The position numbers were made by a program, and so were the translations under genes. Source: Actinomycetota bacterium (lineage in GTDB: Bacteria > Actinomycetota > Coriobacteriia > Anaerosomatales > Anaerosomataceae). From it: DNA of 64,000 nucleotides. Below are positions 8,619-23,905 of the stretch, piece after piece. The notes under the pieces are model-generated. The model did not search any database. It saw only the letters and a list, made by a program, of their open reading frames with translations, and had not been told where the DNA came from. How positions within the stretch are numbered: the stretch's first letter is position 1; every line of letters begins with the position of its first letter. The stretch covers positions 1-64,000 of the forward strand of contig WSXY01000008.1 in assembly GCA_009773565.1 (NCBI GenBank), written 5' to 3'.

Positions 8619-10112
8619 CTACATACCGAAGACGATCGACACCCAGTCAAGCCCGGTCACCATCGGTATCGTTCCAAACGCGATGATGATGATTGCCGCG
8701 ACGACAGCCGGCCATACGGTCGCGGATTGCGAGCCGGCAACCGATTCTTCTCCGTCAGACTCCCCCGCTTCTTGCGACGCATCGATGTAGAGGGAGCGGA
8801 TAACGCGGCCGTAGTAGCCGAATGAGACGACCGATCCGACGACACCGATGATCACGAGCCACAGCAGTTCTGCCTCGAGACCGCCGAGGAACGCGAGCGC
8901 CTTGCCCCAGAATCCAGCGGTCAGCGGAATCCCCGTCAGCGACAACATGCTGACTGCCAGGGCGAACGCGGCAACCGGGTGCTTTCTCCCGGCGCCGGCA
9001 AGTCCGGCAACGCTCCCGTCCCACTCCGGCATTGCGGACTGCAGCGCCTCAATCGACAGGAACGCGCACGCGACACCAAAGGCGTACGTCGCCGCGAACA
9101 GCGTCGCACCCGGAATGACTGCGCTGATGCCGACAAGCGCGTAGCCGACCTGCGCGATACCCGAGTAGCCAAGCATTCGAGAAACCGACGTTTGCTTGAG
9201 GGCCACGAGGTTGCCGAAGATGATTGATGCGGCCGAGATTCCCGCGATGATGACCGTGAGAGGTGCAAGCGTATCTGCAAGCGCCGGATTGAGCCCGCTC
9301 AGAACTGCGGGGCCGAATGCCCGTCCGATCAAGAAGATGAACGCTCCAAGCGCAGCGACCTTGAGGCCCGAGGCCAGAAACGCGGCAGCAGCGGGCGGCG
9401 CGGTCTCATAGGCGTCAGGCGCCCACGAGTGGAACGGGAACACGCCGATCTTGAACGCGAGCGATGTGAGCAGGAGCATCGTTCCGAGGAGCGCCGCCTG
9501 CGGGCCGAGCGTAGCGAGACCATCCAGCATGCCGCTGAATCCCGTCCCGCCGCCACCCAGACCGACCACGACGGCAAGTCCGTAGACCGTGAGGGCCGTT
9601 GCGACGGCGCCCTGGACGAAGTACCGCGCGGCAGCTTCATCTGAACGATCGGTACCACCAGCGGCGACGAGGGCGTAGCCGACGAGCGCCACCGCCTCAA
9701 GCGACACGAACAGGACGGCCAGGTCGAAGGCGCCCACAAGGACCTGCCCGGCGACCGAGCCCAGCGCGATGAGTGCAGCGACGCCCACGCGAGAGGCTTC
9801 TCTCACGGAGATCAACCCTGTTCCCACCGAGAGGAATCCGAGGAAGTAGATGACGAAGGCATATCCAGAGAAGCCGTTGCCGATGAGGATGACGTCAAAG
9901 ACCTGTGTCACCGAGGAGACGTCCGGAATCTCCGGCACGACCGCGCGGGCCAGACAGAGGAGCGACGCGAACAGCAGCGCAGCGCTGACAAGACGCAAGC
10001 CAAGGCGAACACGGCCACCCATATCTGCAACCATTCCAAGCACAGCCCCACCGGCGGCGACCGCAGCGGGAAGCCAGCCGATATCTGCAAGGTTGATCAT
10101 CCAGACTGGCAC
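8619..10112 (-). CDS. nuoN: NADH-quinone oxidoreductase-type complex, subunit N
   Basis: Antiporter-like membrane subunit of complex I, carrying one of the proton paths in the membrane arm. The 497-residue polytopic protein shows the Proton_antipo_M core: a conserved Lys-containing helix (SLAFKIGVFPFHSWAPDAYE), a glutamate in an early helix (LFVSLEAVALVGYAL), and LKQTSVSRMLGYSGIAQVGY. The GTG start shares one base with the nuoM stop (TAGTG), indicating coupling. It is the last gene of the nuo operon. The C-terminal loop is acidic (QEAGESDGEESVAGS), ahead of a final membrane helix. Confidence 0.95.
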   Translation of the reverse strand: MPVWMINLADIGWLPAAVAAGGAVLGMVADMGGRVRLGLRLVSAALLFASLLCLARAVVPEIPDVSSVTQVFDVILIGNGFSGYAFVIYFLGFLSVGTGLISVREASRVGVAALIALGSVAGQVLVGAFDLAVLFVSLEAVALVGYALVAAGGTDRSDEAAARYFVQGAVATALTVYGLAVVVGLGGGGTGFSGMLDGLATLGPQAALLGTMLLLTSLAFKIGVFPFHSWAPDAYETAPPAAAAFLASGLKVAALGAFIFLIGRAFGPAVLSGLNPALADTLAPLTVIIAGISAASIIFGNLVALKQTSVSRMLGYSGIAQVGYALVGISAVIPGATLFAATYAFGVACAFLSIEALQSAMPEWDGSVAGLAGAGRKHPVAAFALAVSMLSLTGIPLTAGFWGKALAFLGGLEAELLWLVIIGVVGSVVSFGYYGRVIRSLYIDASQEAGESDGEESVAGSQSATVWPAVVAAIIIIAFGTIPMVTGLDWVSIVFGM

Positions 10113-11557
10113 TACGACCCCCCTCCCAGAATCATGGTGATTCCGCGCACGACCGGATCGGTCAGTCGCAGGACGAGGCCGGGAGCCACGCCAAGAACGA
10201 TGATCGCCACGACGAGCGGCAGTGCAGCAACAAGCTCAACGGTGCTGGCGTCGGCAAGCGACGACCACTCGCCCGCGAGCGGACCGAAGTTGACCCTGCG
10301 GACCGCAGACAGGTTGTAGACCGCGGCCAGGAACACGCCGATGCCAGCCGGGATCATCCACCAGCCAAACTCGCCGAAGCCCTCGATGAACGCGAGGAAC
10401 TCGCCCGGGAAGCCCGAGAGCCCCGGCAGTCCGAGACTGGCGAGTGCCGCAAACGTGAAGAGCGTCGCCCATCTCGGAACCTGCGCGGCAAGGCCGCCGT
10501 ATCGCGCGATCTCACGGGTGTGGGTACGCTCGTAAAGTGAGCCGACGAGCAGGAAGAGAAGACCCGCCACCAGTCCGTGGCTCACCATGGCAAGAACGGC
10601 GCCGGCAAAGCCCAGCGCGGTACCGGTGGAGATTCCGAGCAACACGAATCCCATGTGGGCGACCGACGAATAGGCGACGAGCCGCTTCAGGTCGGACTGC
10701 GCGAATGCCATGAGCGCGCCGTACACGATGCCGATGATGCCAAGCCCGGCAAGGATCGGGGCGGCGGCTTTGAAGCCCTCGGGCGCGTACGGGATAGCCA
10801 CGCGCAGGAGCCCGTAGCCGCCTATCTTGAGCAGCACGCCGGCAAGCATGATGGAGCCGGCGGTCGGTGCCTCGACGTGCGCATCCGGCAGCCACGTGTG
10901 GAGCGGCCACGCAGGAATCTTCACGAGCATTCCCGCGGCGAGCAGCCAGAAGAGCCAGACCTGCACATCGGCAGGAATCGGGACTGTGATGTCGCCGATT
11001 GCGCCACCGCCGGTGTACGTGAGTGCGACCAGCAGGCCGACGAGCATGAGCGCGGAGCCGGCAAAGGTGTAGATGAAGAACTTGAGCGCCGCGTGTCGGC
11101 GGTTCTCGTGACCCCACTTCCCGATGAGGAAGAACATCGGGATGAGCACGGCTTCCCATGCGACGTAGAAGAGCAGCAGCGTGCCCGCGAGGAAGACGCA
11201 CGTGACAGCTGCCTGCAGCGACAACAGCAGGGCGTGATGCGCGCCTGGGGCGTCGTCAATCTTCCACGAGGCTAGCACCGCAACGATGCCGAGGAGCGCG
11301 GTCAACAGGACGAAGGGCATCGCCAGACCGTCTCCGACAAGCCGGAAGACGACCATGCCGGGCTCGCCCGTGTACGACCAGGCAAACATCGCGTCGTGGT
11401 CACCGAGAAGCTGCACCAACGCGGCGATGGAAACCGCGGCCGTCAGCACGGTCGTTCCAAGTGCGATGACCCTGGGGAGCTGCGCGTTACGCCGACCACT
11501 GAGGGCCGCGGCGATCGCTCCGAGAAGCGGCAGGACTACGAGGAGTACGAGGATCAT
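10112..11557 (-). CDS. nuoM: NADH-quinone oxidoreductase-type complex, subunit M
   Basis: Antiporter-like subunit M of the complex I membrane arm, 481 residues. Visible signatures: the Glu helix in LLFYVAWEAVLIPMFFLIG, the Lys/His helix in KIPAWPLHTWLPDAHVEAPT, and KRLVAYSSVAHMGFVLLG. The start ATG is preceded by GGAGG. It overlaps nuoN by one base and lies 7 bp after nuoL. Distinguished from NuoN by WPLHTWLPDAH and from NuoL by its shorter C-terminus. Confidence 0.96.
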   Translation of the reverse strand: MILVLLVVLPLLGAIAAALSGRRNAQLPRVIALGTTVLTAAVSIAALVQLLGDHDAMFAWSYTGEPGMVVFRLVGDGLAMPFVLLTALLGIVAVLASWKIDDAPGAHHALLLSLQAAVTCVFLAGTLLLFYVAWEAVLIPMFFLIGKWGHENRRHAALKFFIYTFAGSALMLVGLLVALTYTGGGAIGDITVPIPADVQVWLFWLLAAGMLVKIPAWPLHTWLPDAHVEAPTAGSIMLAGVLLKIGGYGLLRVAIPYAPEGFKAAAPILAGLGIIGIVYGALMAFAQSDLKRLVAYSSVAHMGFVLLGISTGTALGFAGAVLAMVSHGLVAGLLFLLVGSLYERTHTREIARYGGLAAQVPRWATLFTFAALASLGLPGLSGFPGEFLAFIEGFGEFGWWMIPAGIGVFLAAVYNLSAVRRVNFGPLAGEWSSLADASTVELVAALPLVVAIIVLGVAPGLVLRLTDPVVRGITMILGGGS

Positions 11558-11564
11558 CGTCGCA

Positions 11565-13382
11565 TCACCTCCCCAGCCAGATCGCTATGCTCATAAGCAC
11601 CACGAACCCGACACCGAGCAGCGACGCGTACACATCCGTCTCGCCGGTTTGGAGGCCTGAGGCGAGGCGACCGAAGAGCATCGTAAGCTTCGCCGTACCC
11701 TCGGCGGCGCCGTCGATCACTTTGCGATCAACGACCTCGTAGAACCACGAAGCCACCTTCTCAAGCGGTGCGACGAGGAACCGGGTGACGAAGCTGTCAA
11801 CGCCATAGGCGCTGAAAAGCACGCCGTGGACCGGCCCGAGCGACGTGCGCTCGGTCTCGAGCCGATCGACCCCCAGACGATAGAGCGCGGCCGCGAGAAG
11901 AACTCCGATAACCGCGACCGTCACCGAAACACCGGCGACGACAGGATCGAGTGCTTCGGCCTCATGACCGAGTGACTGCATGAAGGGTGCTGAGAAGTAG
12001 CCAAGGGCGATGGCCGGTACCGCAAGGGCGATGAGCGGGGCCGTCATGACCAGGCCGCCCTCGTGCGGGTGCGCGGAGCCGCGATACGACCCGAAGAAGA
12101 CGAACCACGTGACGCGGAACGCGTAGAAGGCAGTGAGGAGACTCGCCGCGATGAGTGCGTATCCGGCCAGCGGCGCCGCGTGCAGCACCGACGCGATCAC
12201 GCCGTCTTTCGAGAAGAACCCGGAGAGCAGCGGCAGGCCGGAAAGCGCCCATACGCCGATAAGCCAGGTCGTACCGGTCACCGGCATCTTCTTGAGCAAC
12301 CCGCCCATCTCGCGGATGTCCTGCGTCTCGACGGCGTGGATGACGCTCCCCGAGCCGAGGAACAGCAGCGCCTTGAACGCGGCGTGGGTGGTGAGGTGGA
12401 ACATCGCGGCGCCGGTCGCTCCGGCACCTAGAGCGGCGAACATGAAGCCGAGCTGACTGATCGTGGAGTACGCCAGCACCTTCTTGATGTCGAGTTGCAC
12501 GCAGGCGACAGTGGCCGCGAAGAAGGCGGTCACCACTCCGACGACGAGAACGACATCAAGCGCGATCGGGGCCACTTCGAAGACGGGCCACATCCTGACG
12601 ACGAGGAAGACGCCCGCGGCAACCATGGTCGCCGCGTGGATGAGCGCCGAGACCGGCGTCGGACCTTCCATGGCGTCCGGTAGCCAGATATGGAGCGGGA
12701 ACTGCGCCGACTTCCCTGCAGCTCCGACAAACAGGAGCAGCGCGATGACTGTCACGATGCCGGCACCGATCTCGGGTGCGGCCGCAAGGACCTCCGGGAT
12801 GGAGAGCGAACCGGTGACGCGCCAGAGCAGCGCAAGCCCGAGCAGCATGCCCACATCGCCGATGCGGGTCGTCAGAAACGCCTTGACGGCAGCGGCAGAC
12901 GCGCTTGGCTTGCGGTACCAGAAGCCGATAAGCAGGTACGAGCACGCCCCGACAAGCTCCCAGCCGATGAACAGCGTCACCAGAGACGACGCCATCACGA
13001 GCATGCTCATCGCGCCGGTGAAGAGCGCGAGCAGCGCAAAGTATCGCGGGCGGGCATCATCGTCGGCCATGTAGCCGATCGAGAAGACGACGACGCACGT
13101 CGCAACCACGCCGACGATAACGAGCATGACCGCGGTGAGGTTATCGATGGCCAGCCCGGCGGTCACGACCGAGCCGCCCTGCGACAGCCATGCGACGTCC
13201 TGTGCGGCGGTCGGCACGCTCGATGCGAGAACGCCCACACCTGCAAGCGCCGCAGCAACCGGCGCGACAACAGCGAGCCACTGCGTGATCGAGACGAACT
13301 TCTTGCCGCCAGCGGCAATCAGCAGCGCGAGCGCGAACGGCAGTGCCACGACGCTTAAGGGGTTGCCTGCGAGAAGCGACAT
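11565..13382 (-). CDS. nuoL: NADH-quinone oxidoreductase-type complex, subunit L
   Basis: Distal antiporter-like subunit of complex I, 605 residues, with the long C-terminal part that includes the lateral helix spanning the membrane arm. Signatures include FIGWELVGACSYLLIGFW (conserved Glu), AQFPLHIWLPDAMEGPTPVSALIHAATMVAAG, and the conserved KKVLAYSTISQLGFM. It overlaps nuoK by one base at the start and has close spacing to nuoM. Full length for the family. Confidence 0.97.
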   Translation of the reverse strand: MSLLAGNPLSVVALPFALALLIAAGGKKFVSITQWLAVVAPVAAALAGVGVLASSVPTAAQDVAWLSQGGSVVTAGLAIDNLTAVMLVIVGVVATCVVVFSIGYMADDDARPRYFALLALFTGAMSMLVMASSLVTLFIGWELVGACSYLLIGFWYRKPSASAAAVKAFLTTRIGDVGMLLGLALLWRVTGSLSIPEVLAAAPEIGAGIVTVIALLLFVGAAGKSAQFPLHIWLPDAMEGPTPVSALIHAATMVAAGVFLVVRMWPVFEVAPIALDVVLVVGVVTAFFAATVACVQLDIKKVLAYSTISQLGFMFAALGAGATGAAMFHLTTHAAFKALLFLGSGSVIHAVETQDIREMGGLLKKMPVTGTTWLIGVWALSGLPLLSGFFSKDGVIASVLHAAPLAGYALIAASLLTAFYAFRVTWFVFFGSYRGSAHPHEGGLVMTAPLIALAVPAIALGYFSAPFMQSLGHEAEALDPVVAGVSVTVAVIGVLLAAALYRLGVDRLETERTSLGPVHGVLFSAYGVDSFVTRFLVAPLEKVASWFYEVVDRKVIDGAAEGTAKLTMLFGRLASGLQTGETDVYASLLGVGFVVLMSIAIWLGR

Positions 13383-13678
13383 CAGCCGTTCACCTCCTGC
13401 AGGTCATCCGTGCGGCTTCGAGCGCTCCGACGCGAGAGCGTCACGATGATGGCCATACCGACGCCAACCTCGGCGGCAGCGACAACGAGCACCATGAGCG
13501 CGAGCGCCTGGGCGCTCTCACCGGGCACCCCGGACATGGACGCGAAGGAGACGAGCTGGACGTTGGCAGCACCGAGCATGAGCTCCGCACCTGCGAGGAC
13601 TGCGATGAGCTCGCGCCTGGTGAGGACGACGTAGAGGCCAAGGCCGAAGACTGCGGCACACAGAACAAGCGCGCTCAT
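13382..13678 (-). CDS. nuoK: NADH-quinone oxidoreductase-type complex, subunit K
   Basis: Small three-helix subunit of the proton channel region, 98 residues (the family is usually about 100). The two conserved membrane glutamates are seen as LIAVLAGAELMLGAANV and MVLVVAAAEVGVGMAI. It overlaps nuoJ by four bases (ATGA type) and nuoL by one base, so all three are translationally linked. Confidence 0.95.
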   Translation of the reverse strand: MSALVLCAAVFGLGLYVVLTRRELIAVLAGAELMLGAANVQLVSFASMSGVPGESAQALALMVLVVAAAEVGVGMAIIVTLSRRSARSRTDDLQEVNG

Positions 13679-14166
13679 CGGCGCTCACCCGCCCCGACGA
13701 TGACAAGCACCGCGACAAGGGCGATCAGCAAGAGCCCTCCCGCAAGTTCGAAGACGACGATGCTCCTGCCGAGCAACTCGACGGCAATCGGTCCGCCGGG
13801 GGTCCCGCTTTGCGGCAGCCACCCGCCAACAGACTCGCGCAGCGTCATGAAGAGCATCCCTGAAACGCCGGCCCCGATTGCCGCGGCACCGATGTCGTGT
13901 CGCGCCTCAAGAACAGGCCGACCGTTCGCACGATGCACGACCATGATGGCGAAGATCATCAGCACAAGGACGCCGCCGACGTACACGAAGACCTGTGCCG
14001 TCGCAAGAAAGGCGTGACCGTAGTAGAGGAACATGCCGGCGACACCCAGCAAAAACGCGCCAAGGCCGACAACCAGGCGCATGACGTCCTTGGTGAGTGC
14101 GACGCCCAGCGCGCCACCCACCATGAGGGCCGCAGCAAGCGCAAACGCAACTGTATCGAGTGACAT
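13675..14166 (-). CDS. nuoJ: NADH-quinone oxidoreductase-type complex, subunit J
   Basis: Five-helix membrane subunit of complex I. The central conserved helix appears as LATAQVFVYVGGVLVLMIFAIM, including the YVGG/VLxLFxFVxM motif. I chose the ATG that shares one base with the preceding stop (TGATG), preceded by GGAGG eight bases upstream; this gives 163 residues. Earlier in-frame starts would lie inside the end of the oxidoreductase fusion gene. Confidence 0.94.
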   Translation of the reverse strand: MSLDTVAFALAAALMVGGALGVALTKDVMRLVVGLGAFLLGVAGMFLYYGHAFLATAQVFVYVGGVLVLMIFAIMVVHRANGRPVLEARHDIGAAAIGAGVSGMLFMTLRESVGGWLPQSGTPGGPIAVELLGRSIVVFELAGGLLLIALVAVLVIVGAGERR

Positions 14167-16211
14167 CACCGCTCCCTCCATCGCGGAACGGGACATCCCG
14201 GCGGCATGATGCCGTCGCGGCCGGTCGCACGGGTGCCGTCACCGGAGCGCAGCATCTCTCCCTTGTCGAAGATCATGAGGTCGCGGTGGAAGAACGACAG
14301 CTCGTACTGGCCCGTGTGGGTCAGCGCGTTCGTGGGGCACTGCTCGGCGCAGAGACCGCAGAAGGCGCACTTGGACAGGTCAAGGTCGTAGCGAGTCAGG
14401 CAGCGACCACCGGGGTCGTCGACGCGCTCAACGTGGATGGCGTAATCGGGGCACGTGCGCGCGCAGAACGTGCATCCCACGCAGACCTCGGACTGGCAGC
14501 GCAAGCAACGCGCGGCCTCCATCATCGCTTCCTGATGCGTGAGGCCGAGCTCGACCTGGCGGAAGTCCTTCGCACGCTCTTCGGGCTTCGTCATCGGCAT
14601 GACCGAGCGAAGGCGCGAGCGCTCGACGCTGCTGACGTCAGCAACGGCGTACTTTGCGTAAACGGGGACCGGCCGCGGAGTGCGATTCTCGGAAAGCGGC
14701 GCCCCTTGCAGGAAGCGGATGATCGACGTGGCGGCTTCGTGACCGGTCGCGATCGACCCGATCGCGCTACCGGGGCCGGTGACGACCTCGCCGCATGCGA
14801 ACACGCCGGGAGTGGACGTCGTGAACTGCGAGCCGTCAACGACCAGCTGCCCGCGGCCCGAGACAAGCACCTCGGTGCCCGCGATGAGCGTATCGAGCCT
14901 GGCCGCCTGGCCGATCGAGAAGACGACAACGTCGCACGGGAAGTCCGAGAGGCCCTCGCCGTACTTTGGCGAGAAGCGCCCGGTCTCATCAAAGACTGAG
15001 AGGCACTCCCGCATCCGCATACCGGTGACCGCACCGTGCTTGACGAGCACTTCCTCGGGACCGACCGAACACGTCGCGATGACTCCCTCGTCAAGCGCTT
15101 CTTCGATCTCCCACGGATGCGCTGGCATCTCTTCCTCGGACTCGAGTGACGCGAGTCGTACCTCGCTCGCGCCTGTACGCAGCGCGCAGCGGGCGACGTC
15201 GACGGCGACGTTGCCGCCTCCGATGACGAAGACGCGCTTGCCGCGCACGCCGGTCTCGCCTTTGTGGTTGGCGGCCCAGAGGAACTCGAGCGCACCGACG
15301 ACACCGTCGGCGCCTGCGCCGGGAATCGGCAGGATGCGGCTTGTCTGGAGGCCGACGGCGAGGAGCACCGCGTCGTGCTCGCGCTGCAGCGCCCCGAGCG
15401 GCTTGCCCTTCCCTACCTCGATGCCGCAATGCAGCTCGAGGCCGAGCGCGACGATCCCGTCGATCTCGTCGTAGAGAACGTCGCGAGGCAGGCGGTACGC
15501 GGGCACACCGCTGTTGAGTGCGCCACCGGGGCGCTCCTCGCGCTCGTACATGACGCAGCGGTAGCCAGCCTTCATGAGGTCGTATGCGGCGGTGAGACCA
15601 GATGGTCCGCTGCCCACGATCGCGACCGACTTCTCCTGCGTTATCGGCAGAGGTCGGAGGCGCTCAGAGGCGACCTTGCGGAACTCCTCGTAGGCAAAGC
15701 GGTGGAGCGGCCGGATGGCCACGGGTTCATCGTAGAAGTTGCGGCGACACGCCGTCTCGCACGGGTGATGGCAGATGCGGCCAAGGACTCCCGGCAAGAT
15801 GTTGCGGTCGCGGACAAGCTCGTACGCCTCGGGGATGCGGTCCTCGGCGATGAGGAACCCTTGCCCGCGCGCGTCGACGTTGGCCGGGCAGTTCCCCACG
15901 CACGGGGGAAGCCGCTCGCCGTTGTAGAGGTCGTCGATCACCGCGTTGTAGGCGGTGGAGGCATCGCGGATGAGCGGGATCTCGTCGTGACCGAGCACGC
16001 CGCGGAGCCGCAGCGCGCCGCGCCAACGCGGGCTGACGGTCCACTTCTCGGCAGGATAGCGGATGGTGATGGGCTTCTCGGTGCTGATGCGCGCCGTGAT
16101 GCCGAGGCCGTTGACGAGCGAATGCACCTTCTCGAGAAAGCCCTTCACGCCGGGCGAATACTCGTTGCTGACGCTCGCGGGCGTCGTGATGTCTTTGCGG
16201 ATCACAACCAT
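14166..16211 (-). CDS. NuoI with inserted GltD-type FAD/NAD(P) oxidoreductase (fusion)
   Basis: A 681-residue protein in the nuoI position of the operon. Residues about 20-72 match the NuoI N-terminal arm (KPITIRYPAEKW, PRWRG). Residues 90-560 are a GltD-type module: an N-terminal Fe-S region (Cys 104, 108, 147, 151, 155), FAD motif GSGPSG at 200-205, and second dinucleotide motif IGGGNVAVD near 330-338. Residues 577-588 (CVGCTFCARTCP) and 615-626 (CAFCGLCAEQCP) bind two 4Fe-4S clusters as in NuoI, followed by a NuoI-like tail. nuoE, F and G are absent, so I infer that the inserted module feeds electrons from NAD(P)H, or takes them from a ferredoxin, directly into the peripheral arm. The ATG overlaps nuoH by ten bases; no clear ribosome binding site, and a GTG two codons on is possible. 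Confidence 0.88.
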   Translation of the reverse strand: MVVIRKDITTPASVSNEYSPGVKGFLEKVHSLVNGLGITARISTEKPITIRYPAEKWTVSPRWRGALRLRGVLGHDEIPLIRDASTAYNAVIDDLYNGERLPPCVGNCPANVDARGQGFLIAEDRIPEAYELVRDRNILPGVLGRICHHPCETACRRNFYDEPVAIRPLHRFAYEEFRKVASERLRPLPITQEKSVAIVGSGPSGLTAAYDLMKAGYRCVMYEREERPGGALNSGVPAYRLPRDVLYDEIDGIVALGLELHCGIEVGKGKPLGALQREHDAVLLAVGLQTSRILPIPGAGADGVVGALEFLWAANHKGETGVRGKRVFVIGGGNVAVDVARCALRTGASEVRLASLESEEEMPAHPWEIEEALDEGVIATCSVGPEEVLVKHGAVTGMRMRECLSVFDETGRFSPKYGEGLSDFPCDVVVFSIGQAARLDTLIAGTEVLVSGRGQLVVDGSQFTTSTPGVFACGEVVTGPGSAIGSIATGHEAATSIIRFLQGAPLSENRTPRPVPVYAKYAVADVSSVERSRLRSVMPMTKPEERAKDFRQVELGLTHQEAMMEAARCLRCQSEVCVGCTFCARTCPDYAIHVERVDDPGGRCLTRYDLDLSKCAFCGLCAEQCPTNALTHTGQYELSFFHRDLMIFDKGEMLRSGDGTRATGRDGIMPPGCPVPRWRER

Positions 16212-17149
16212 GGGAGCACCGCCCCGACGATCACGAGTTGCAGCAGGGCAAGCGGCGTGAGCACCTTCCAGCAGAACGACATCAGCTGGTCCTGGCGGGG
16301 CCGCGGAAACGTCCACTTGACCCACATCACGGCGGTCATGATGAGGACGGTCTTGATGACGAGAAGGACCACACCAGCAGCGCCGGAGAGCGGCCAGCCG
16401 CCACCAAAGAACACGACGGCGCCGAAGAGGCTCGCCGCGATCATCGAGCCGTACTCGGCCATCATGAAGCTGGCCCAGCGCATGCCCGAGTAGTCGGCGA
16501 AGTACCCGGCGACAAGCTCGGAATCGGCCTCGGGGATGTCAAAGGGACCGCGATTCATCTCGGCGATAGATGCGATGAAGTAGATGACGAATCCGACGAA
16601 CGTGAGCGGCGCCCACCACCACTGCCAGGCGCTGAGTACGTCGAGCGGGCGGAGCGAACCGGCGAGCAGCACCACCGAGAGGACGGCGAGCGATCGCGGG
16701 ATCTCGTAGCTGATCATCTGTGCGGTGGCACGAAGGCCGCCGATGGTGGAGAGCGTGTTGTGACTCGCCCATGCGGACAGCAAGATGGCGATGACCTCGA
16801 TCGACGGCACCGCGAGGAAGAACAGGATGCCGACGCTCATGTCGACCGGCGCCCAGCCAGCCGCGAACGGGATGACGACCATCGACGTCGCGACCGGCCC
16901 GAAAACAAAGAGCGGCGCGAGCTTGAAGACCGCCTTGTCGGCGAGGTCCGGGACGATATCTTCCTTGAAGAGCAGCTTCGGCACGTCGGCGATCATCTGC
17001 AGCGAGCCGTAGGGCCCGATCTGCTGCGGCCCGTAGCGCATCTGGATGCGCGCGGAGACCTTGCGCTCCCACCACACGCCAAGGATGGCACCACCGGCGA
17101 TGGTGGCGACCGACGCGACGCCCCAGAGGAATCCCCACAAGAGCGTCAC
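16202..17149 (-). CDS. nuoH: NADH-quinone oxidoreductase-type complex, subunit H
   Basis: Membrane subunit that forms the quinone entry chamber with NuoB and NuoD. The 315-residue polytopic protein shows the family signatures ERKVSARIQMRYGPQQIGPYGSLQ near residue 30 and EMNRGPFDIPEADSELVAGY (conserved Glu cluster) near 205. GTG and ATG starts are possible; the start used overlaps nuoD by four bases. Its 3' end overlaps the NuoI-GltD fusion gene. Confidence 0.96.
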   Translation of the reverse strand: MTLLWGFLWGVASVATIAGGAILGVWWERKVSARIQMRYGPQQIGPYGSLQMIADVPKLLFKEDIVPDLADKAVFKLAPLFVFGPVATSMVVIPFAAGWAPVDMSVGILFFLAVPSIEVIAILLSAWASHNTLSTIGGLRATAQMISYEIPRSLAVLSVVLLAGSLRPLDVLSAWQWWWAPLTFVGFVIYFIASIAEMNRGPFDIPEADSELVAGYFADYSGMRWASFMMAEYGSMIAASLFGAVVFFGGGWPLSGAAGVVLLVIKTVLIMTAVMWVKWTFPRPRQDQLMSFCWKVLTPLALLQLVIVGAVLPWL

Positions 17150-18315
17150 CTGTCCACCTCCCCGAAGACGGGGTCAAGCGAGCCGAGGATGACGACAAGG
17201 TCCGAGAGCGTGTGGCCCTTAGCAAGCAGTGGCAACACCGCGAGGTTGCAAAACGCTGGCGACCGAACCTTCATACGATAGAGGCGCGGCGAACCATCGC
17301 TGACGAGGTACACGCCAAGCGAGCCGCGGGCGGACTCGATGTGGTCGTACGCGTCGCCCGGGCGCGGTGCGAGCAGCCGCGGGAGACCCTCGGCCTGCAC
17401 GGATCCGGGCTCGAGCTGATCGAGCGCCTGGTTGATGATGCGGCACGACTCTACGCACTCCCACACGCGGACGCGCGCACGGTCGTAACTGTCGCCGTTA
17501 TCGCCAAGCGGCACGCTGAAGTCGAAGCGCGGGTACACCGAGTACGGGTCGTCTCGGCGAAGGTCCCAATCGACGCCTGAGCCGCGCGCGATTGGGCCCG
17601 AGGTGCCCCAGGCGACGGCATCGACTTGCGTGAGCACGCCCACGCCCTTGAGACGAGCGCGCGCGATGACGTTGCCAAGCAGCAGGTCGTCGATCTCGAG
17701 CATCGCCGAGGGGTGCTGCGCGGTGAACGCGCGACACTGCTCGACCCAGCCGTCCGGCAGATCGCGCGAGACGCCACCGGGACGGACGTAGTTATACGTG
17801 AGGCGAGCTCCGCAGAGCAGCTCGAAGAGCTCCACGACCTTCTCGCGCTGCGCGAACGTGTACATGAAGGCGGTGAACGCGCCCGTATCGGCGCCGGTGG
17901 AGCCGATGCCCATCATGTGCGACGCGATGCGCTGCAACTCGCAGACGATCACGCGGATGTACTCGGCGCGCTCCGGGACGCGGATGCCGGCGAGACGCTC
18001 GACAGCGCGGCAGTACGCCCAGTTCGCGTACATCGAACCGACGTAATCGAGGCGGTCTGTGAGCGGCACGACCTGGAGGTACGTGCGGTTCTCGGCCATC
18101 TTCTCGATACCGCGATGGAGGTGCCCGATGATCGGCTCGCAGTGCGTGATGACTTCGCCGTCGAGATGCACGACAACGCGACACACCCCGTGGGTGGACG
18201 GGTGCGAAGGCCCGATGTTGACGACGGTCTCCATCACGGTCTCTGTCGGCTCGGTCCCGGTAGGCTGGGTCTCCGCCGTGTCCGGCGTGACGTCGCTCGT
18301 GGATGTCTGGGTCAT
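17146..18315 (-). CDS. nuoD: NADH-quinone oxidoreductase-type complex, subunit D (49 kDa)
   Basis: Hydrophilic subunit related to the large subunit of NiFe hydrogenases; it binds quinone together with NuoB. The 389-residue protein shows NIGPSHPSTHGV and the quinone-site region GHLHRGIEKMAENRTY, and ends in the conserved DPVFGEVDR. An extra Thr/Glu-rich N-terminal stretch of about 27 residues precedes the domain and may be absent if translation starts later. It is separate from nuoC, not fused as in E. coli. Confidence 0.96.
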   Translation of the reverse strand: MTQTSTSDVTPDTAETQPTGTEPTETVMETVVNIGPSHPSTHGVCRVVVHLDGEVITHCEPIIGHLHRGIEKMAENRTYLQVVPLTDRLDYVGSMYANWAYCRAVERLAGIRVPERAEYIRVIVCELQRIASHMMGIGSTGADTGAFTAFMYTFAQREKVVELFELLCGARLTYNYVRPGGVSRDLPDGWVEQCRAFTAQHPSAMLEIDDLLLGNVIARARLKGVGVLTQVDAVAWGTSGPIARGSGVDWDLRRDDPYSVYPRFDFSVPLGDNGDSYDRARVRVWECVESCRIINQALDQLEPGSVQAEGLPRLLAPRPGDAYDHIESARGSLGVYLVSDGSPRLYRMKVRSPAFCNLAVLPLLAKGHTLSDLVVILGSLDPVFGEVDR

Positions 18316-18327
18316 GTTCGCACCCCC

Positions 18328-18789
18328 TTAGATGTAGTCGGGACGTCGGATGATACGGTCGTCCTCGTAGTCTTTGCGAAGCGGATAGCCGACCCAATCG
18401 TCCGTCAGCAGAATCCTGCGAAGGTCGGGGTGGCCGTCGAACGTGATGCCGAACAGGTCGAAGACCTCGCGCTCCTGCCAGTTGGCCGCGGGCCACAGAT
18501 CGCAGACGGACGCGATGACCGGCGTCTCTCGCTTGATGCGAGCCTTGAGGAAGATGCCGGCATGCATGGCTCGCGACTGCAGGCGATAGACCAGCTCGAA
18601 CTCCTCGCCGTAGTCGACAGCGGTGACCATGCCGAGACGGTCGAAGCCAAGATCCTTGAGGTCGCTCGCCGCTTGATGGAGTCGCTCGTGAGAGACGCAG
18701 AGAACACCATCGCCGAACTCGATGGAGAAGAGCGGGCAGAGGTCCGGATAGATGCCGCAGAGGTGTTCGCGGAGGTCCTCGATCTTCAC
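18328..18789 (-). CDS. nuoC: NADH-quinone oxidoreductase-type complex, subunit C (30 kDa)
   Basis: Hydrophilic subunit of the peripheral arm. The 153-residue protein carries the family signature [20 protein letters not shown] followed by [18 protein letters not shown]. The ATG start overlaps the nuoB stop by four bases. The spacing to nuoD is 12 bp. Confidence 0.96.
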
Positions 18790-19373
18790 GACGGCTCACC
18801 ACCTTCGGCAGCGATGTCGCCTTTTCGCGGATCGCCCGGCTGCGGCAGGATGCTCTTCACAGGTTTCGCGCGCGAAGGAACGATCGACTCGGCGCTGACC
18901 TTCTCGCGGAGCCTGAGGATCGCGTCCTGCAACGCCTCGGGGCGAGGCGGGCAGCCGGAGATGTACACGTCGACCGGCAGGAACTCGTCCACGCCGCGCA
19001 CGACGGAGTAGGTGTCGTAGTAGAAGATGCCGCCGGAGACGGCGCAGTTGCCCATCGCGATACACCACTTGGGCTCGGGCATCTGCTCCCAGAGGCGCTT
19101 GACCGCGGGCTCCATCTTGCGGGTGATCGTGCCGGCCACCACCATGACGTCCGTGTGACGAGGGTCGGGGCGCGGGATCGAGCCGTGACGGTCGAAGTCA
19201 AAGCGTGCGAACGACGCGGCGATAAGCTCCATCGCACAACACGCGGTGCCCATCGGCATCATCCACAGCGACTTACCGCGCGACCAATCGATGAGCGCAT
19301 CAAGCGACGTGAGGATGATTCCGCCGCCGGGGGTCTTGTCGAGCGCAGCGCCAAGGTCGTCTACGAAGGCCAC
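18786..19373 (-). CDS. nuoB: NADH-quinone oxidoreductase-type complex, subunit B (N2 cluster)
   Basis: Carries the terminal 4Fe-4S cluster N2 that reduces quinone. All four cysteine ligands are visible: the CC pair in TACCAMEL, then CIAMGNC, and CPPRPEAL. I chose the GTG beginning VAFVDDLG, with a G-rich ribosome binding site and a 13-base overlap with nuoA; this gives 195 residues. The much longer open frame upstream is the antisense-like shadow of nuoA. The C-terminus has a charged extension ([16 protein letters not shown]) beyond the usual domain. Confidence 0.94.
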
Positions 19374-19720
19374 TTGAGCGCCCCCTTCCGCCACGCGTAG
19401 AGCAGGCCGAATCCGAGGAACGCCGCGAAGGCGGCAAGCTCGACCAACCCGGTGACCGACCCGCGAACAGCCGGTGCGACCGCGAACAGGAGCACGGTCT
19501 CGGCCTCGAAGATGACGAAGAGCAGGGCGATATCCGCGAAGCGGACGTTCACGGGAAGCCACGGGGACGACGCCTGAGGTATGCCGCATTCGTACGCGGA
19601 GTTCTTGGTGTCGTTCGGCTTGCGCGGAGAGAGCAGCGCGTTTGCGGTTATGAGCAGGAGCAGGAAGAGTACGGGGCCGGCCGCGAGCCCAATTGCAAAG
19701 AGCACTCGCTCTGCCGCCAT
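19361..19720 (-). CDS. nuoA: NADH-quinone oxidoreductase-type complex, subunit A
   Basis: Three-helix subunit next to the quinone chamber; its first loop (KNSAYECGIPQ, with the conserved Cys) changes conformation during turnover. The ATG beginning MAAERVLF has GGAGGGG upstream and gives 119 residues, normal for the family. First gene of the 11-gene operon; the promoter and two palindromes lie directly upstream. Confidence 0.95.
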   Translation of the reverse strand: MAAERVLFAIGLAAGPVLFLLLLITANALLSPRKPNDTKNSAYECGIPQASSPWLPVNVRFADIALLFVIFEAETVLLFAVAPAVRGSVTGLVELAAFAAFLGFGLLYAWRKGALKWPS

Positions 19721-19759
19721 CAGCTGATCCCCACCCCTCCAGAAACGTGACCATCGACA

Positions 19760-19777
19760 TTGTAACAAGAGTTACAC
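19760..19777. promoter_or_regulatory. Rex-like palindromic operator, proximal copy
   Basis: Contains the perfect inverted repeat TGTAAC-AAGA-GTTACA. It lies about 40 bp before the nuoA ATG, inside the predicted leader. Seven-base arms with a four-base centre are the layout of binding sites for the redox regulator Rex (TTGTGAA-N4-TTCACAA), but the arm sequence here is TTGTAAC. The regulator itself is inferred, not shown. Confidence 0.6.
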
Positions 19778-19859
19778 ACTTTTGAGGTGAGAACATCCGC
19801 CCTCGTCATCGTGCATATCCCCCCAACCGCGGTCTCTGTCACACCGTCGGCTACTGCGC

Positions 19860-19889
19860 TTTATAGCAGAATCAACAAGACTTTGTAAA
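19860..19889 (-). promoter_or_regulatory. Predicted sigma-70-like promoter of the nuo operon
   Basis: On the minus strand a -35 element TTTACA and a -10 element TATAAA are separated by 18 bases. The start of transcription would be about 130 bases before the nuoA ATG. The distal palindrome overlaps the -35 element, which is the geometry expected for repression. Confidence 0.55.
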
Positions 19890-19905
19890 CATTGTTACAA
19901 AGTCT
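19878..19905. promoter_or_regulatory. Rex-like palindromic operator, distal copy
   Basis: AGACTTTGTAA, six bases, then TTACAAAGTCT: perfect 11-bp arms sharing the core TGTAA-N6-TTACA with the proximal copy. The centres of the two copies are about 123 bp apart. It could also fold as an RNA hairpin ending the ABC-F transcript, but no T-run follows. Confidence 0.6.
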
Positions 19906-19947
19906 CGGACTTCTCGTTGGTTGTTACTCGAACCGTACGCCGGGCGA

Positions 19948-21951
19948 CTACTTGGACTCTTCGCCCTCAACGGCCTCGGAAGCCTCAAGCCACTCAGCCT
20001 CAAGCGAGACGAGTTGGACCTTGAGATCCTTGTACTCCGCCATGACGCGCGCGAATCTCACCGCGTCGTCATAGACCGCGGGATCGGCAAGGTCGACGAG
20101 CATCTCGGCGTGCCGGGCATTCGCGGTCGCGAGCTCCCTATCAAGCGTGGTGAGGCGCTTCTTGAGCTCTTTAGTCGCACGGTATGCGTGATTGCGTGCC
20201 TCGGCCTCGGCGCGCTTTTGCTCTTTGGTCTTGGGAGCAGCGGCGCCCGTATCGCTCGAGACCACCCGCGGCGCCTCGGCGTCGCGTCCGGACGCGGAGT
20301 CCGCCAACTTGCCGGGCTTGGCGGCTCCCGGCGTCGCGGATCCGGTACCCTGAGCGCGCTTGAACAGGTAGTAGTCGTAGTCGCCCTCAAAGATGCGAAT
20401 CCCGCCGTCGCGCACTTCGATCACCTTGTTGGCGACCGCACGGATGAGGTGCCTGTCGTGCGTGATGAGCACGAGCGTTCCGGTGTACGAGCAGAGCGCA
20501 TGCTCGAGCACGTCGCTCGACGTGATATCCAGGTGGTTGGTCGGTTCGTCGACGCACAGGAGCGGCGCAGGGGCCACGAGCAGCTTGGCAAGCGCGAGCC
20601 GGGCACGCTCCCCTCCCGACAGGACGCGAACCTTCTTCATGACGTCGTCCCCCAGGAAGAGGAAGGCGCCGAGAAGGCGACGGCATTCCTGGGGCGTCCA
20701 GGCGGGTGCTGCAGTCCCAAGTTCCTCGAGAACGGTGTTCGTGAGGCCGAGCGCCTCCAGCTGGTGCTGCGCGAAGTACGCCACCGAGGCGTTGTGGCCA
20801 AGCTTGCGCTCCCCAGCATCGGGCGCGAGTTCGCCTGCGAGCATGCGCAGGAGCGTAGACTTCCCGGCGCCGTTGGGTCCGACGAGTGCGACCTTATCGC
20901 CGCGATGCAGCGCCAGGTCGAGTCCGTCGTACACGACGAGGTCGCCGTAGGCTTTGCGCACGCCGTCGAGGCGGATGACCTCGGCGCCGGTCCGCTCGGG
21001 CTGCGGGAAGCGGAACTTGACCGTCTTGCGTTCCTCGGGAAGCTCGATGAGCTCCATCTTCGCGAGCATCTTGACGCGCGACTGCACCGCGGTGGCCTTC
21101 GTGCTCTTCGCACGGAATCGCTCGATGAACTGCTTCTGGTGCTCGATCTCCTTGCGCTGCTGCTCGTAGGCGGTCTTCAACTGCTCGAGGGCGACCGCCT
21201 TCTGTGCGAGGAACGCCGAATACGTGCCCGGATAGACGGTGAGCTTGCGCTGGTCGATCTCGGCCACGTGGTCGACGAGGCCGTCGATGAACGCGCGGTC
21301 GTGGCTCACGATGAGGATCGCGCCGTCGTACGCGCGCAAGAAGCCTTCGAGCCAGGTCACGCTCTCGAGGTCGAGGTGATTGGTGGGTTCGTCGAGCAGC
21401 AAGACGTCCGGTTGCGTCAAGAGCAGCTTCGCGAGCGCGATCCGCATGAGCCAGCCGCCCGAGAACTCGGCGCAGTCGCGCTCCAGGTCACGCTCCTTGA
21501 AGCCGAGGCCCACAAGCACCGCTCGGGCGTCGATCTCCAGCGTGTAGCCGCCGAGGTGCTCGAACCGCTCGCGGAGACGGCCGTACTCGGCCAGCAGGCG
21601 CTCGGCGTCCTCGCCTTCTGGGTCGTCGGCCAGCTGCTCCTCGAGCACGCGGATGCGGTGGTCGAGCGAGTTGACCTCCTCGGCGACGGACAGGACTTCT
21701 GCCAGAACGCTGCGGCCTGCCATCTCGATGGCTTCCTGCTTGAGGTAGCCGATCGTGGCGCCCTTGGCGGTGTACACGCTACCCTCGTCGGCCGTCTGCT
21801 CGCCGGCGATGACTTCGAGGAGCGTCGTCTTGCCCGCGCCGTTTGCGCCGACAAGCGCAACACGGTCGCGTGCTCCAACGCGAAGGAACGCGTCCTTAAC
21901 GAGGACGCGTTCGCCAACTGATTTCATGACATGGTCTACGGTGATTATCAC
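19948..21951 (-). CDS. ABC-F family ribosome-associated ATPase
   Basis: Soluble protein with two ABC ATPase domains and no membrane part, the ABC-F type that works on ribosomes in translation or antibiotic protection. Domain 1: [33 protein letters not shown]. Domain 2: [31 protein letters not shown]. Between them is the long charged linker (region of [16 protein letters not shown]) that reaches the peptidyl-transferase centre in this family. A C-terminal coiled coil ([14 protein letters not shown]) follows a low-complexity Lys/Ala/Glu stretch, as in Uup-like proteins. GTG start without a clear ribosome binding site, perhaps leaderless. Subfamily (EttA, Uup, other) not decided. Confidence 0.92.
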
Positions 21952-22891: not shown

Positions 22892-23905
22892 TTAGGGTAG
22901 CTGCGCCATCGAGTGACAGTTGAGACAGAGGTTGTCACCGACTTCCACGAGGAGTCTCGCGTTCTGCGTCTCGTGGGGGAAGTTCTGGAAGAGCGGCGAG
23001 TCCGAAGCCGGGCCACTGGCGTTGGGAGTGTCGCCGTCGGTCACGCCGTTGCCGTACCTGTAGACCTGTGCCCGATTGACCGCGCCGGGCTCTGCGACCA
23101 CGCGGGAGTCCTCATGGCACTGCTGGCAGATCGGAGAATGCCCCGCTTGCCCGGCAGTCCGGGGATACGGCATCACGAATCCCCTGTTGTGCCAGTAGAG
23201 ATTCGGCGTGCTGGTACCCTCCATGCCCATCGTCCCGTATGTCGTCTCCAGCGAAGTGTCGGACTTCACAATGGCGACGTTGTCGTAGTAAAAGGGCGAG
23301 GTCGTCGTGAGCTTCGAGTCGACAGGGTGGTTATGGACCGTCGCTCCCGAGCTGCGCCCCAGATGGCAGCTTGCGCACCAGTCTGAGCCGTACACCGTCG
23401 CAGTCGTGTCGGCGCCTGTCGGCCGCTGACGAAGCAGTTTGCTGGTGCGCCACTCTTTGGTGGGAGCGCCGAGGAACTGATCGGTCGCATGGTACCGAAC
23501 TCGCTCGCCTCGGAATCCGGCCACGGTCTTGGAGTTGTGGGGGCTGTGACAGTCTCCACAGGTGAGCGTGCCGCCAGTACCCTTGAATGTCTCGGTTCTA
23601 CTGCCTCCCGAAGCGCCATCGCCGCCCGGAATGACCGTCGATGTTTCGACCCGATGGGATGCTCCGACAGTGAGACCGCGCGCCTTGATCGACCCGTAGA
23701 CGCCGCTGCCGGCTGTACCGTCGTGGCACATCTCACAGGTCGCCTTGACGGTGAACTCGGGCAGGAGCTTGTACGGAGAGTTGGCGTCATGCAGCGTGTG
23801 GCACAGGTGGCACTTCTTGGACGTGGCTGTGTAACCGTCGTGCGGGCCCGTCTTCTCACCGTAGGGGGGTGATTGGTCTACGTGACAGGTTCCGCACTCC
23901 AACAT
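22892..23905 (-). CDS. Multiheme cytochrome c (seven CXXCH), body of a gene with an in-frame stop
   Basis: Heme-binding electron carrier expected outside the membrane. Seven CXXCH sites are visible in order: CGTCH, CHLCH, CEMCH, CGDCH, CASCH, CQQCH, CLNCH, with additional His residues as possible sixth ligands (for example SPHN). The body has no signal peptide. In the same frame, 3 codons upstream, a TGA separates it from a typical signal peptide with its own ribosome binding site (see next entry). If the TGA is real and not suppressed, the product could not be exported or matured, so this copy would be inactive. The gene stands alone; the partner oxidoreductase is unknown. Confidence 0.85.
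   Translation of the reverse strand: MLECGTCHVDQSPPYGEKTGPHDGYTATSKKCHLCHTLHDANSPYKLLPEFTVKATCEMCHDGTAGSGVYGSIKARGLTVGASHRVETSTVIPGGDGASGGSRTETFKGTGGTLTCGDCHSPHNSKTVAGFRGERVRYHATDQFLGAPTKEWRTSKLLRQRPTGADTTATVYGSDWCASCHLGRSSGATVHNHPVDSKLTTTSPFYYDNVAIVKSDTSLETTYGTMGMEGTSTPNLYWHNRGFVMPYPRTAGQAGHSPICQQCHEDSRVVAEPGAVNRAQVYRYGNGVTDGDTPNASGPASDSPLFQNFPHETQNARLLVEVGDNLCLNCHSMAQLP

Follow-up and report, generated by a model that had tools for sequence, protein, structure and literature searches.

Judging from their sequence, the two palindromes in front of the nuo operon are very probably bound by the NADH-responsive repressor Rex. We consider it highly likely that they are operators of RexA, which is the canonical one among the Rex paralogues of this genome, and that NAD+-bound RexA represses nuo by occlusion of the promoter at the distal site together with the leader site, until NADH releases it. 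The DNA itself provides the sites, which are conserved throughout the order Anaerosomatales, occur at rexA and at other redox genes and are confined to a Rex-bearing order, and it shows the overlap of one of them with the predicted -35. RexA would bind these sites with NADH as the signal for its release, acting as a repressor rather than as an activator, and would form a roadblock in the leader.

Two palindromes in front of nuoA

In the window (the whole stretch of 64,000 nucleotides analysed, from a genome of the Coriobacteriia, order Anaerosomatales), nuoA is the first gene of the operon (19361..19720, minus strand). The intergenic region 19721-19947 is limited upstream by an ABC-F ATPase gene on the same strand as nuo (19948..21951, minus strand). 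The earlier note had described two TGTAA-N6-TTACA palindromes of 7-4-7 spacing, and both were located in this region, with their centres 123 bp apart. The distal palindrome, a predicted Rex site, occupies 19883..19900 (minus-strand TTGTAACAATGTTTACAA, plus-strand TTGTAAACATTGTTACAA). The leader palindrome, also a predicted Rex site of 7-4-7 spacing, occupies 19760..19777 (minus-strand GTGTAACTCTTGTTACAA, plus-strand TTGTAACAAGAGTTACAC), at about +76 to +93; its proximal end is 39 nt ahead of the nuoA ATG, in agreement with the approximately 40 bp given previously. Each site matches TTGTAAC-N4-GTTACAA at 13 of the 14 arm bases, and the symmetry of the distal site extends beyond the core as perfect 11-nt arms (19878-19888 and 19895-19905). 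Both sites have the 18-bp, two-fold 7-4-7 architecture of Rex operators. Their arms are not the TTGTGAA/TTCACAA of Rex: position 5 is A in the four window arms and position 7 is C in three of them.

The search for TGTAAC-N4-GTTACA with up to two mismatches gave two matches in the 64-kb window, namely the distal and leader sites. The same search in the shuffled window gave a mean of 0.51 matches and at least two matches in 9 of 100 shuffles, and consequently the window considered alone is merely suggestive. A 4-bp-spacer site of at least 12/14 was present in 39 of 49 nuoA upstream regions of the order, compared to 0.05 expected from shuffles, and this conservation confirms that the palindromes are real.

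Downstream of nuoA, the operon contains nuoB, C, D and H, a GltD-like/NuoI fusion, nuoJ, nuoK and three more genes (8619..19373, minus strand). The genes from nuoB to nuoK were assigned with NCBIfam, and the last three (8619-13382, minus strand), delimited with our own gene caller, are called nuoL/M/N-type from their size and order. The fusion (681 residues; 14166-16211, minus strand) joins a GltD/NAD(P)-binding-like part to a NuoI-like ferredoxin part and is located at the NuoI position. NuoEFG were not found among the genes of this operon, which makes it less obvious why an NADH sensor should control it. The GltD-like/NuoI fusion may be the route by which complex I meets NAD(P)H, as an alternative electron-input module. 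The Anaerosomatales, the former OPB41 lineage of the Coriobacteriia, include two cultured strains which are described as likewise lacking NuoEFG (PMC9686372). The same source names a Rex-type gene within the multihaem cytochrome cluster of one cultured strain (PMC9686372). In the window, a gene at 22892-23905 (minus strand) has several CxxCH motifs at its start and resembles a multihaem cytochrome (putative). There is a second nuo-like locus near C12:275043, and no site of at least 12/14 was found within C12:270000-289999.

The predicted nuo promoter across the Anaerosomatales

NuoA was detected in 59 of the 61 genomes of the order. The upstream regions analysed were the 49 from genomes with a best match of E ≤1e-30; the other 10 of the 59 genomes, which had only weaker, second-copy-like NuoA matches (E >1e-24), were left out of the nuo set. 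At least one site of at least 12/14 was present in 46 of the 49 regions (the exceptions being G004, G019 and G051). Across the order, the distal site varies very little and is asymmetric (TTGTAACAATnTTTACAA). The hexamer of its nuo-facing arm is TTTACA in 34 of the 39 distal sites, counted in a table in which the row of G002 is a leader site taken as distal. In the window this hexamer (19884..19889, minus strand, read from 19889 to 19884) forms part of the right arm of the predicted distal operator, and its predicted role as the -35 agrees with the overlap proposed in the earlier note. A predicted extended -10, TGC-TATAAA, follows 18 bp after it (19860..19865, minus strand), as deduced from the alignment with relatives. 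A predicted -10 with at least 4/6 matches to TATAAT accompanies 36 of the 39 distal sites; the spacing from the -35 is 17 or 18 bp in 36/39, and TG precedes the -10 in 23. Transcription of nuo would start near 19853. A generic promoter scan listed nothing in the nuoA upstream region. Our reading of the distal sequence is that it serves at the same time as an operator arm and as the -35 element. Its 4-bp spacer (19890-19893 in the window) is AATn in 32 of the 39 distal sites, and the spacers of the formate dehydrogenase sites are mixed. Since A/T-rich spacers favour Staphylococcus aureus Rex, AATn may offset the imperfect distal arm.

Leader sites of at least 11/14, with a 4- or 5-bp spacer, were present in 26 of the 49 nuo regions, including that of the window; three of them reach only 11/14. 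The spacer is of 5 bp in 21 leader sites and of 4 bp in 5 (here and in genus g3). The leader palindrome reported earlier is present, with the correction that its 4-bp spacer is the rarer form.

According to the mechanism that we propose, at high NAD+ RNA polymerase would be excluded by a RexA dimer on the distal operator, where the arm on the promoter side coincides with the predicted -35. A second RexA dimer, on the leader operator some 75-95 bp past the predicted start, would block elongation or add to the repression. A rise in NADH would release RexA and the nuo operon would be transcribed. The two operators might instead cooperate by DNA looping, rather than acting as independent -35 occlusion and roadblock. 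Distal and leader sites are paired in 22 promoters from several families, and 17 of these 22 pairs have a distance of 118-126.5 bp, as looping would favour. However, the whole range is 109.5-144.5 bp, the differences between distances are fractions of a helical turn, and no such pair was seen in 24 of the 46 site-bearing nuo promoters. Looping is, in our opinion, unlikely.

Rex paralogues and their promoters

The search for a Rex homologue proposed in the earlier note was positive: the genome harbours three Put_DNA-bind_N proteins, RexA (L011, C13:20426), RexB (L012, C12:240255) and RexC (L013, C12:247244), and two of them, RexA and RexB, are over the NCBIfam Rex cut-offs. Both RexA domains, the N-terminal Put_DNA-bind_N (PF06971, 60.7 bits) and the C-terminal Rossmann domain (PF02629, CoA_binding, 73.1 bits), are over cut-off, as are its scores with the family models NF003995 (258 bits, cut-off 126), NF003992 (236.3, cut-off 226), NF003993 (227.3, cut-off 217) and others. 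The dinucleotide-binding glycine motif is present (VGAGNLGSAIANY, aligned with solved Rex proteins). RexC is below the NCBIfam Rex cut-offs, without a Pfam CoA_binding match or a clear glycine motif (IGTARMLEA), features from which it may be a Rex that does not sense NAD(H) any more; RexC relatives were found in G009, G016, G025 and G029. Among loci L076-L100, most RexB relatives retain QVRKDLSYLG, the recognition helix of classical Rex, with DLSCLG in the copy of this genome; the classical TTGTGAA-N4-TTCACAA site was nevertheless not found by exact search of the 61 genomes. One genome (G057) has six Rex-domain matches, four of them within 7 kb (C54:69025-75853). Rex matches were obtained in 58 of the 61 genomes of the order; in the rest of the class, none of the 30 genomes had a match over the Rex cut-off and three had weak, sub-cut-off matches.

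A TTGTAAC-N4/5-GTTACAA site of at least 11/14 was present in 49 of 51 rexA promoters (it was lacking in L152 and L161), and two rexA loci outside the 51 (L255 and L256) also carry an upstream site. Pooling the 51 loci with 41 overlapping ones, 89 of 92 had a site, compared to 0.49 expected from shuffles. The rexA site of this genome (TTGTAACAAAGGGATACTA) is weak (12/14, 5-bp spacer).

Spacers of 0 to 12 bp were scanned at a threshold of at least 12/14. The nuo regions had sites with spacers of 4 bp (39), 5 bp (20), 3 bp (1) and 12 bp (1) and none with other lengths; the rexA regions had spacers of 4 bp (27) and 5 bp (21) and no other length. Exact sites with a 5-bp spacer numbered 16, in 15 of the 61 genomes, and the reversed control gave 0. 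They were in nuo leaders (11/16), upstream of a sulfhydrogenase-beta-like gene (3/16, one of them family-tested) and upstream of an SDR gene (1/16), and the sixteenth is the second 5-bp site of G058 (C153). The spacer class switches at orthologous sites, the nuo leader among them; at rexA it is of 5 bp in most of the family of this genome and of 4 bp in most others.

The two spacer classes, together with the presence of RexB and RexC in this genome, might mean that one of these paralogues reads the sites, or those of the 5-bp class. Also, in five motif-bearing genomes (G021, G025, G029, G041 and G046) the Rex recovered was RexB alone or RexB and RexC. However, none of the 22 rexB promoters has a site (nor has rexC, for which there was one locus). 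The 5-bp rexA sites are present in genomes in which one or the other paralogue was not matched: G009 (99% complete) and G016 (100%), both with RexA and RexC and no RexB match, and G003 (99%), with RexA and RexB and no RexC match. As each of these three genomes gave no match to one of the other paralogues, RexA is most likely the reader of both spacer classes. The failure of RexC at the NCBIfam Rex cut-offs and its missing CoA_binding match also argue against it. We consider it quite improbable that RexB or RexC reads these sites.

RexA was recovered in 53 of the 61 genomes. The eight without it (G020, G021, G025, G029, G041, G046, G047 and G051) are all at most 94% complete, and a motif copy is still present in 7 of them (all but G051), including G020 and G047, in which no Rex was recovered. 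From completeness alone, a universal gene would be expected to be missed about 4.4 times, and therefore assembly gaps are the likely, albeit unproven, reason for the missing rexA. G051 (94% complete) has no Rex match and no nuo site of at least 12/14, and keeps two cNMP-binding-domain proteins. Its motif count was 3 compared to 4 in the control, and the counts of three genomes of the same family were 9 vs. 2, 5 vs. 0 and 7 vs. 1. An 11/14 match with a 5-bp spacer, 233 bp before its nuoA, is perhaps a decayed site. The lack of a Rex match together with a background motif count in G051 is one case in support of the Rex reading, short of proof. In G004 and G019, Rex is present and the nuo site is absent.

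Distribution of the motif and putative target genes

The motif was analysed in the 61 genomes of the order and in a class-wide set of 69 Anaerosomatales and 128 other Coriobacteriia. Exact TTGTAAC-N4-GTTACAA was found 41 times, in 36 of the 61 genomes, and the reversed-pattern control in 0/61. Class-wide, it was present in 37 of 69 members of the order vs. 1 of 128 others (reversed control 0/69 and 2/128), and the sole copy from another order (G188) is located between two converging gene ends, outside any promoter.

The scan for the motif at redox genes that had been suggested gave formate dehydrogenase-like, NiFe(Se) hydrogenase, SDR and rexA genes across the order, so the motif is located at rex and at respiratory and fermentation promoters, as Rex operators are. 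Genes were delimited with our own simple caller, and the family matches of the targets cover partial genes and in most cases do not reach the curated cut-offs. With this scope, 24 of the 41 exact copies adjoin formate dehydrogenase-like genes, 22 directly and 2 (L040 and L242) via a neighbouring NHL-repeat gene alone; at the two family-tested loci, L001 (read through an in-frame TGA) and L235, the best match was formate dehydrogenase-N alpha. Other exact copies are upstream of SDR dehydrogenase (8/41), NiFe(Se) hydrogenase small subunit (3/41) and rexA (4/41) genes, and in total 39 of the 41 are beside formate dehydrogenase-like, SDR, hydrogenase or rexA genes. The remaining two are upstream of tungstate-binding tupA (1/41) and by genes without an assignable name (1/41). 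In the genome of the window there are ten sites with up to two mismatches (control, 3), two of them at nuo. Others are upstream of formate dehydrogenase, Ycf48-like, SDR dehydrogenase and TudS-related genes, and one is 228 bp upstream of acetate-CoA ligase. Three have no evident redox link, one of which spans the start of a chorismate-synthase-like gene (this name and that of a LysR-type gene were assigned by eye).

CRP-type sites have the form TGTGA-N6-TCACA, to which the arms found here are akin, and this genome encodes three cNMP-binding-domain proteins, so that an activator or repressor of the CRP/FNR type might read the TTGTAA-N6-TTACAA sites instead of Rex. However, such proteins are present in the 14 genomes tested (14/14), including G051 and five genomes of other orders, and G051 and four of the other-order genomes, which keep them, have the motif no more often than the control. 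Separate CRP-like sites, TTGTGA-N6-TCACAA, were also found (13 in 11 of the 61 genomes), and this reading is difficult to reconcile with the motif in 49 of 51 rexA promoters. A CRP/FNR-type reader is very unlikely. The arm had led the earlier note to suggest a variant site or another regulator. The variant Rex site is favoured because the motif is in 49 of 51 rexA promoters, is restricted to the Rex-bearing order and does not follow the CRP/FNR proteins; the other regulator was not upheld.

An alternative in which the ABC-F gene ends at the distal palindrome as its intrinsic terminator, as the listing of this repeat as terminator-like (13 pairs) would suggest, and in which the leader palindrome forms an RNA hairpin, is scarcely credible and was rejected. 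Conservation is limited to the 18-bp core, the flanking 4 bp being complementary in just 3 of 39 cases, and in several leader arms the sequence is preserved and the pairing lost (e.g. ACGTAAC/GTTACAA). The folding of the leader RNA does not exceed that of shuffled sequences (z -0.25), there is no Rfam match, and the motif also precedes hydrogenase, SDR, formate dehydrogenase and rexA genes.

Comparison with known Rex systems

The predicted RexA sites TTGTAAC-N4/5-GTTACAA would constitute an operator dialect of the known Rex system, particular to the Anaerosomatales; the newness of the motif is not proven. Our literature search found nothing on Rex binding in Coriobacteriia and no earlier regulon prediction for the Anaerosomatales; the consensus of the main comparative study (Ravcheev 2012) is quoted from papers that cite it. 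Among the matches listed for TTGTAAC, the only one that looked relevant was Streptococcus mutans, in which just one arm of a site with mismatches has this sequence. The prediction would place formate, hydrogen and complex I genes of a little-studied subsurface order under one NADH sensor, and a complex I without NuoEFG under such a sensor raises the question of what feeds the enzyme.

The published Rex consensus is TTGTGAA-N4-TTCACAA (PMC5355995), from which the arms described here depart at positions 5 and 7. An exact search did not find this full consensus among the 13 TTGTGA-N6-TCACAA sites of the 61 genomes. In Streptomyces avermitilis and S. coelicolor, with the consensus TTGTGAANNNNTTCACAA, Rex is reported to repress nuoA1-N1 and also the rex operon (PMC5355995). 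The footprinted operator of S. avermitilis nuoA1 is TTGTGACCTGCTTCACAT, and the protection, from -42 to -16, takes in the -35 (PMC5355995), which is a precedent for the occlusion proposed at the distal site. The description of Streptomyces nuoA1 is of one protected region (PMC5355995), whereas here there is a second, leader operator and a TTGTAAC arm. Unlike Streptomyces nuoA1-N1, no NuoEFG were found in the operon of the window.

In Thermoanaerobacter ethanolicus and Thermoanaerobacterium saccharolyticum, Rex also has a lineage dialect (ATTGTTANNNNNNTAACAAT), with T at position 5 instead of the A found here, and paired Rex sites are predicted at adhE, at -150 and -31 (PMC5886521). The solved Rex 3wg9 has RQDLNNFG where RexA has RRDLTHFG.

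The best PDB sequence match of RexA was the Thermotoga maritima Rex-DNA complex (7WB3). In T. maritima Rex, Arg48 is reported to contact Gua5, and Lys49 to contact Gua7 and Ade8 of the operator (PMC8836258). By our own mapping, these contacts would correspond to positions 3, 5 and 6 of TTGTGAA. The residue at the Lys49 place is Arg in 92 of 92 RexA loci and Lys in 22 of 22 RexB loci. The change from Lys to Arg as the only cause of the altered specificity is weakened by the solved Rex 2vt2, which we take to be that of Bacillus subtilis and which also has Arg at this place; as B. subtilis Rex shares it, other residues must matter for the changed code. Thr after RRDL of RexA was discarded as a requirement: it is Ser in L094 and Ala in L143, L144, L157, L162 and L164, all of them with a site.

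It is possible, although we propose it tentatively, that RexA of the Anaerosomatales has evolved a distinct operator code (A where other Rex contact G, and spacers of both 4 and 5 bp), in which the spacer and the -35-constrained arm give rexA, the nuo promoter, the nuo leader and formate dehydrogenase their own NADH set points. If this were true, nuo, with its pair of sites, would have a switch of two thresholds controlling a complex I that lacks the usual NADH module. S. aureus Rex prefers an 18-bp palindrome with a 4-bp, A/T-rich spacer, comparable to AATn in the nuo distal site, and its binding is reported to be most hurt by changes at position 4 or 5 and strongly by changes in spacer length (PMC2883068). 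In contrast to these preferences, position 5 is A here and 5-bp spacers are common. Because S. aureus Rex is least tolerant of changes at just this position and in the spacer, the Anaerosomatales offer a natural series of how the DNA code of a repressor changes.
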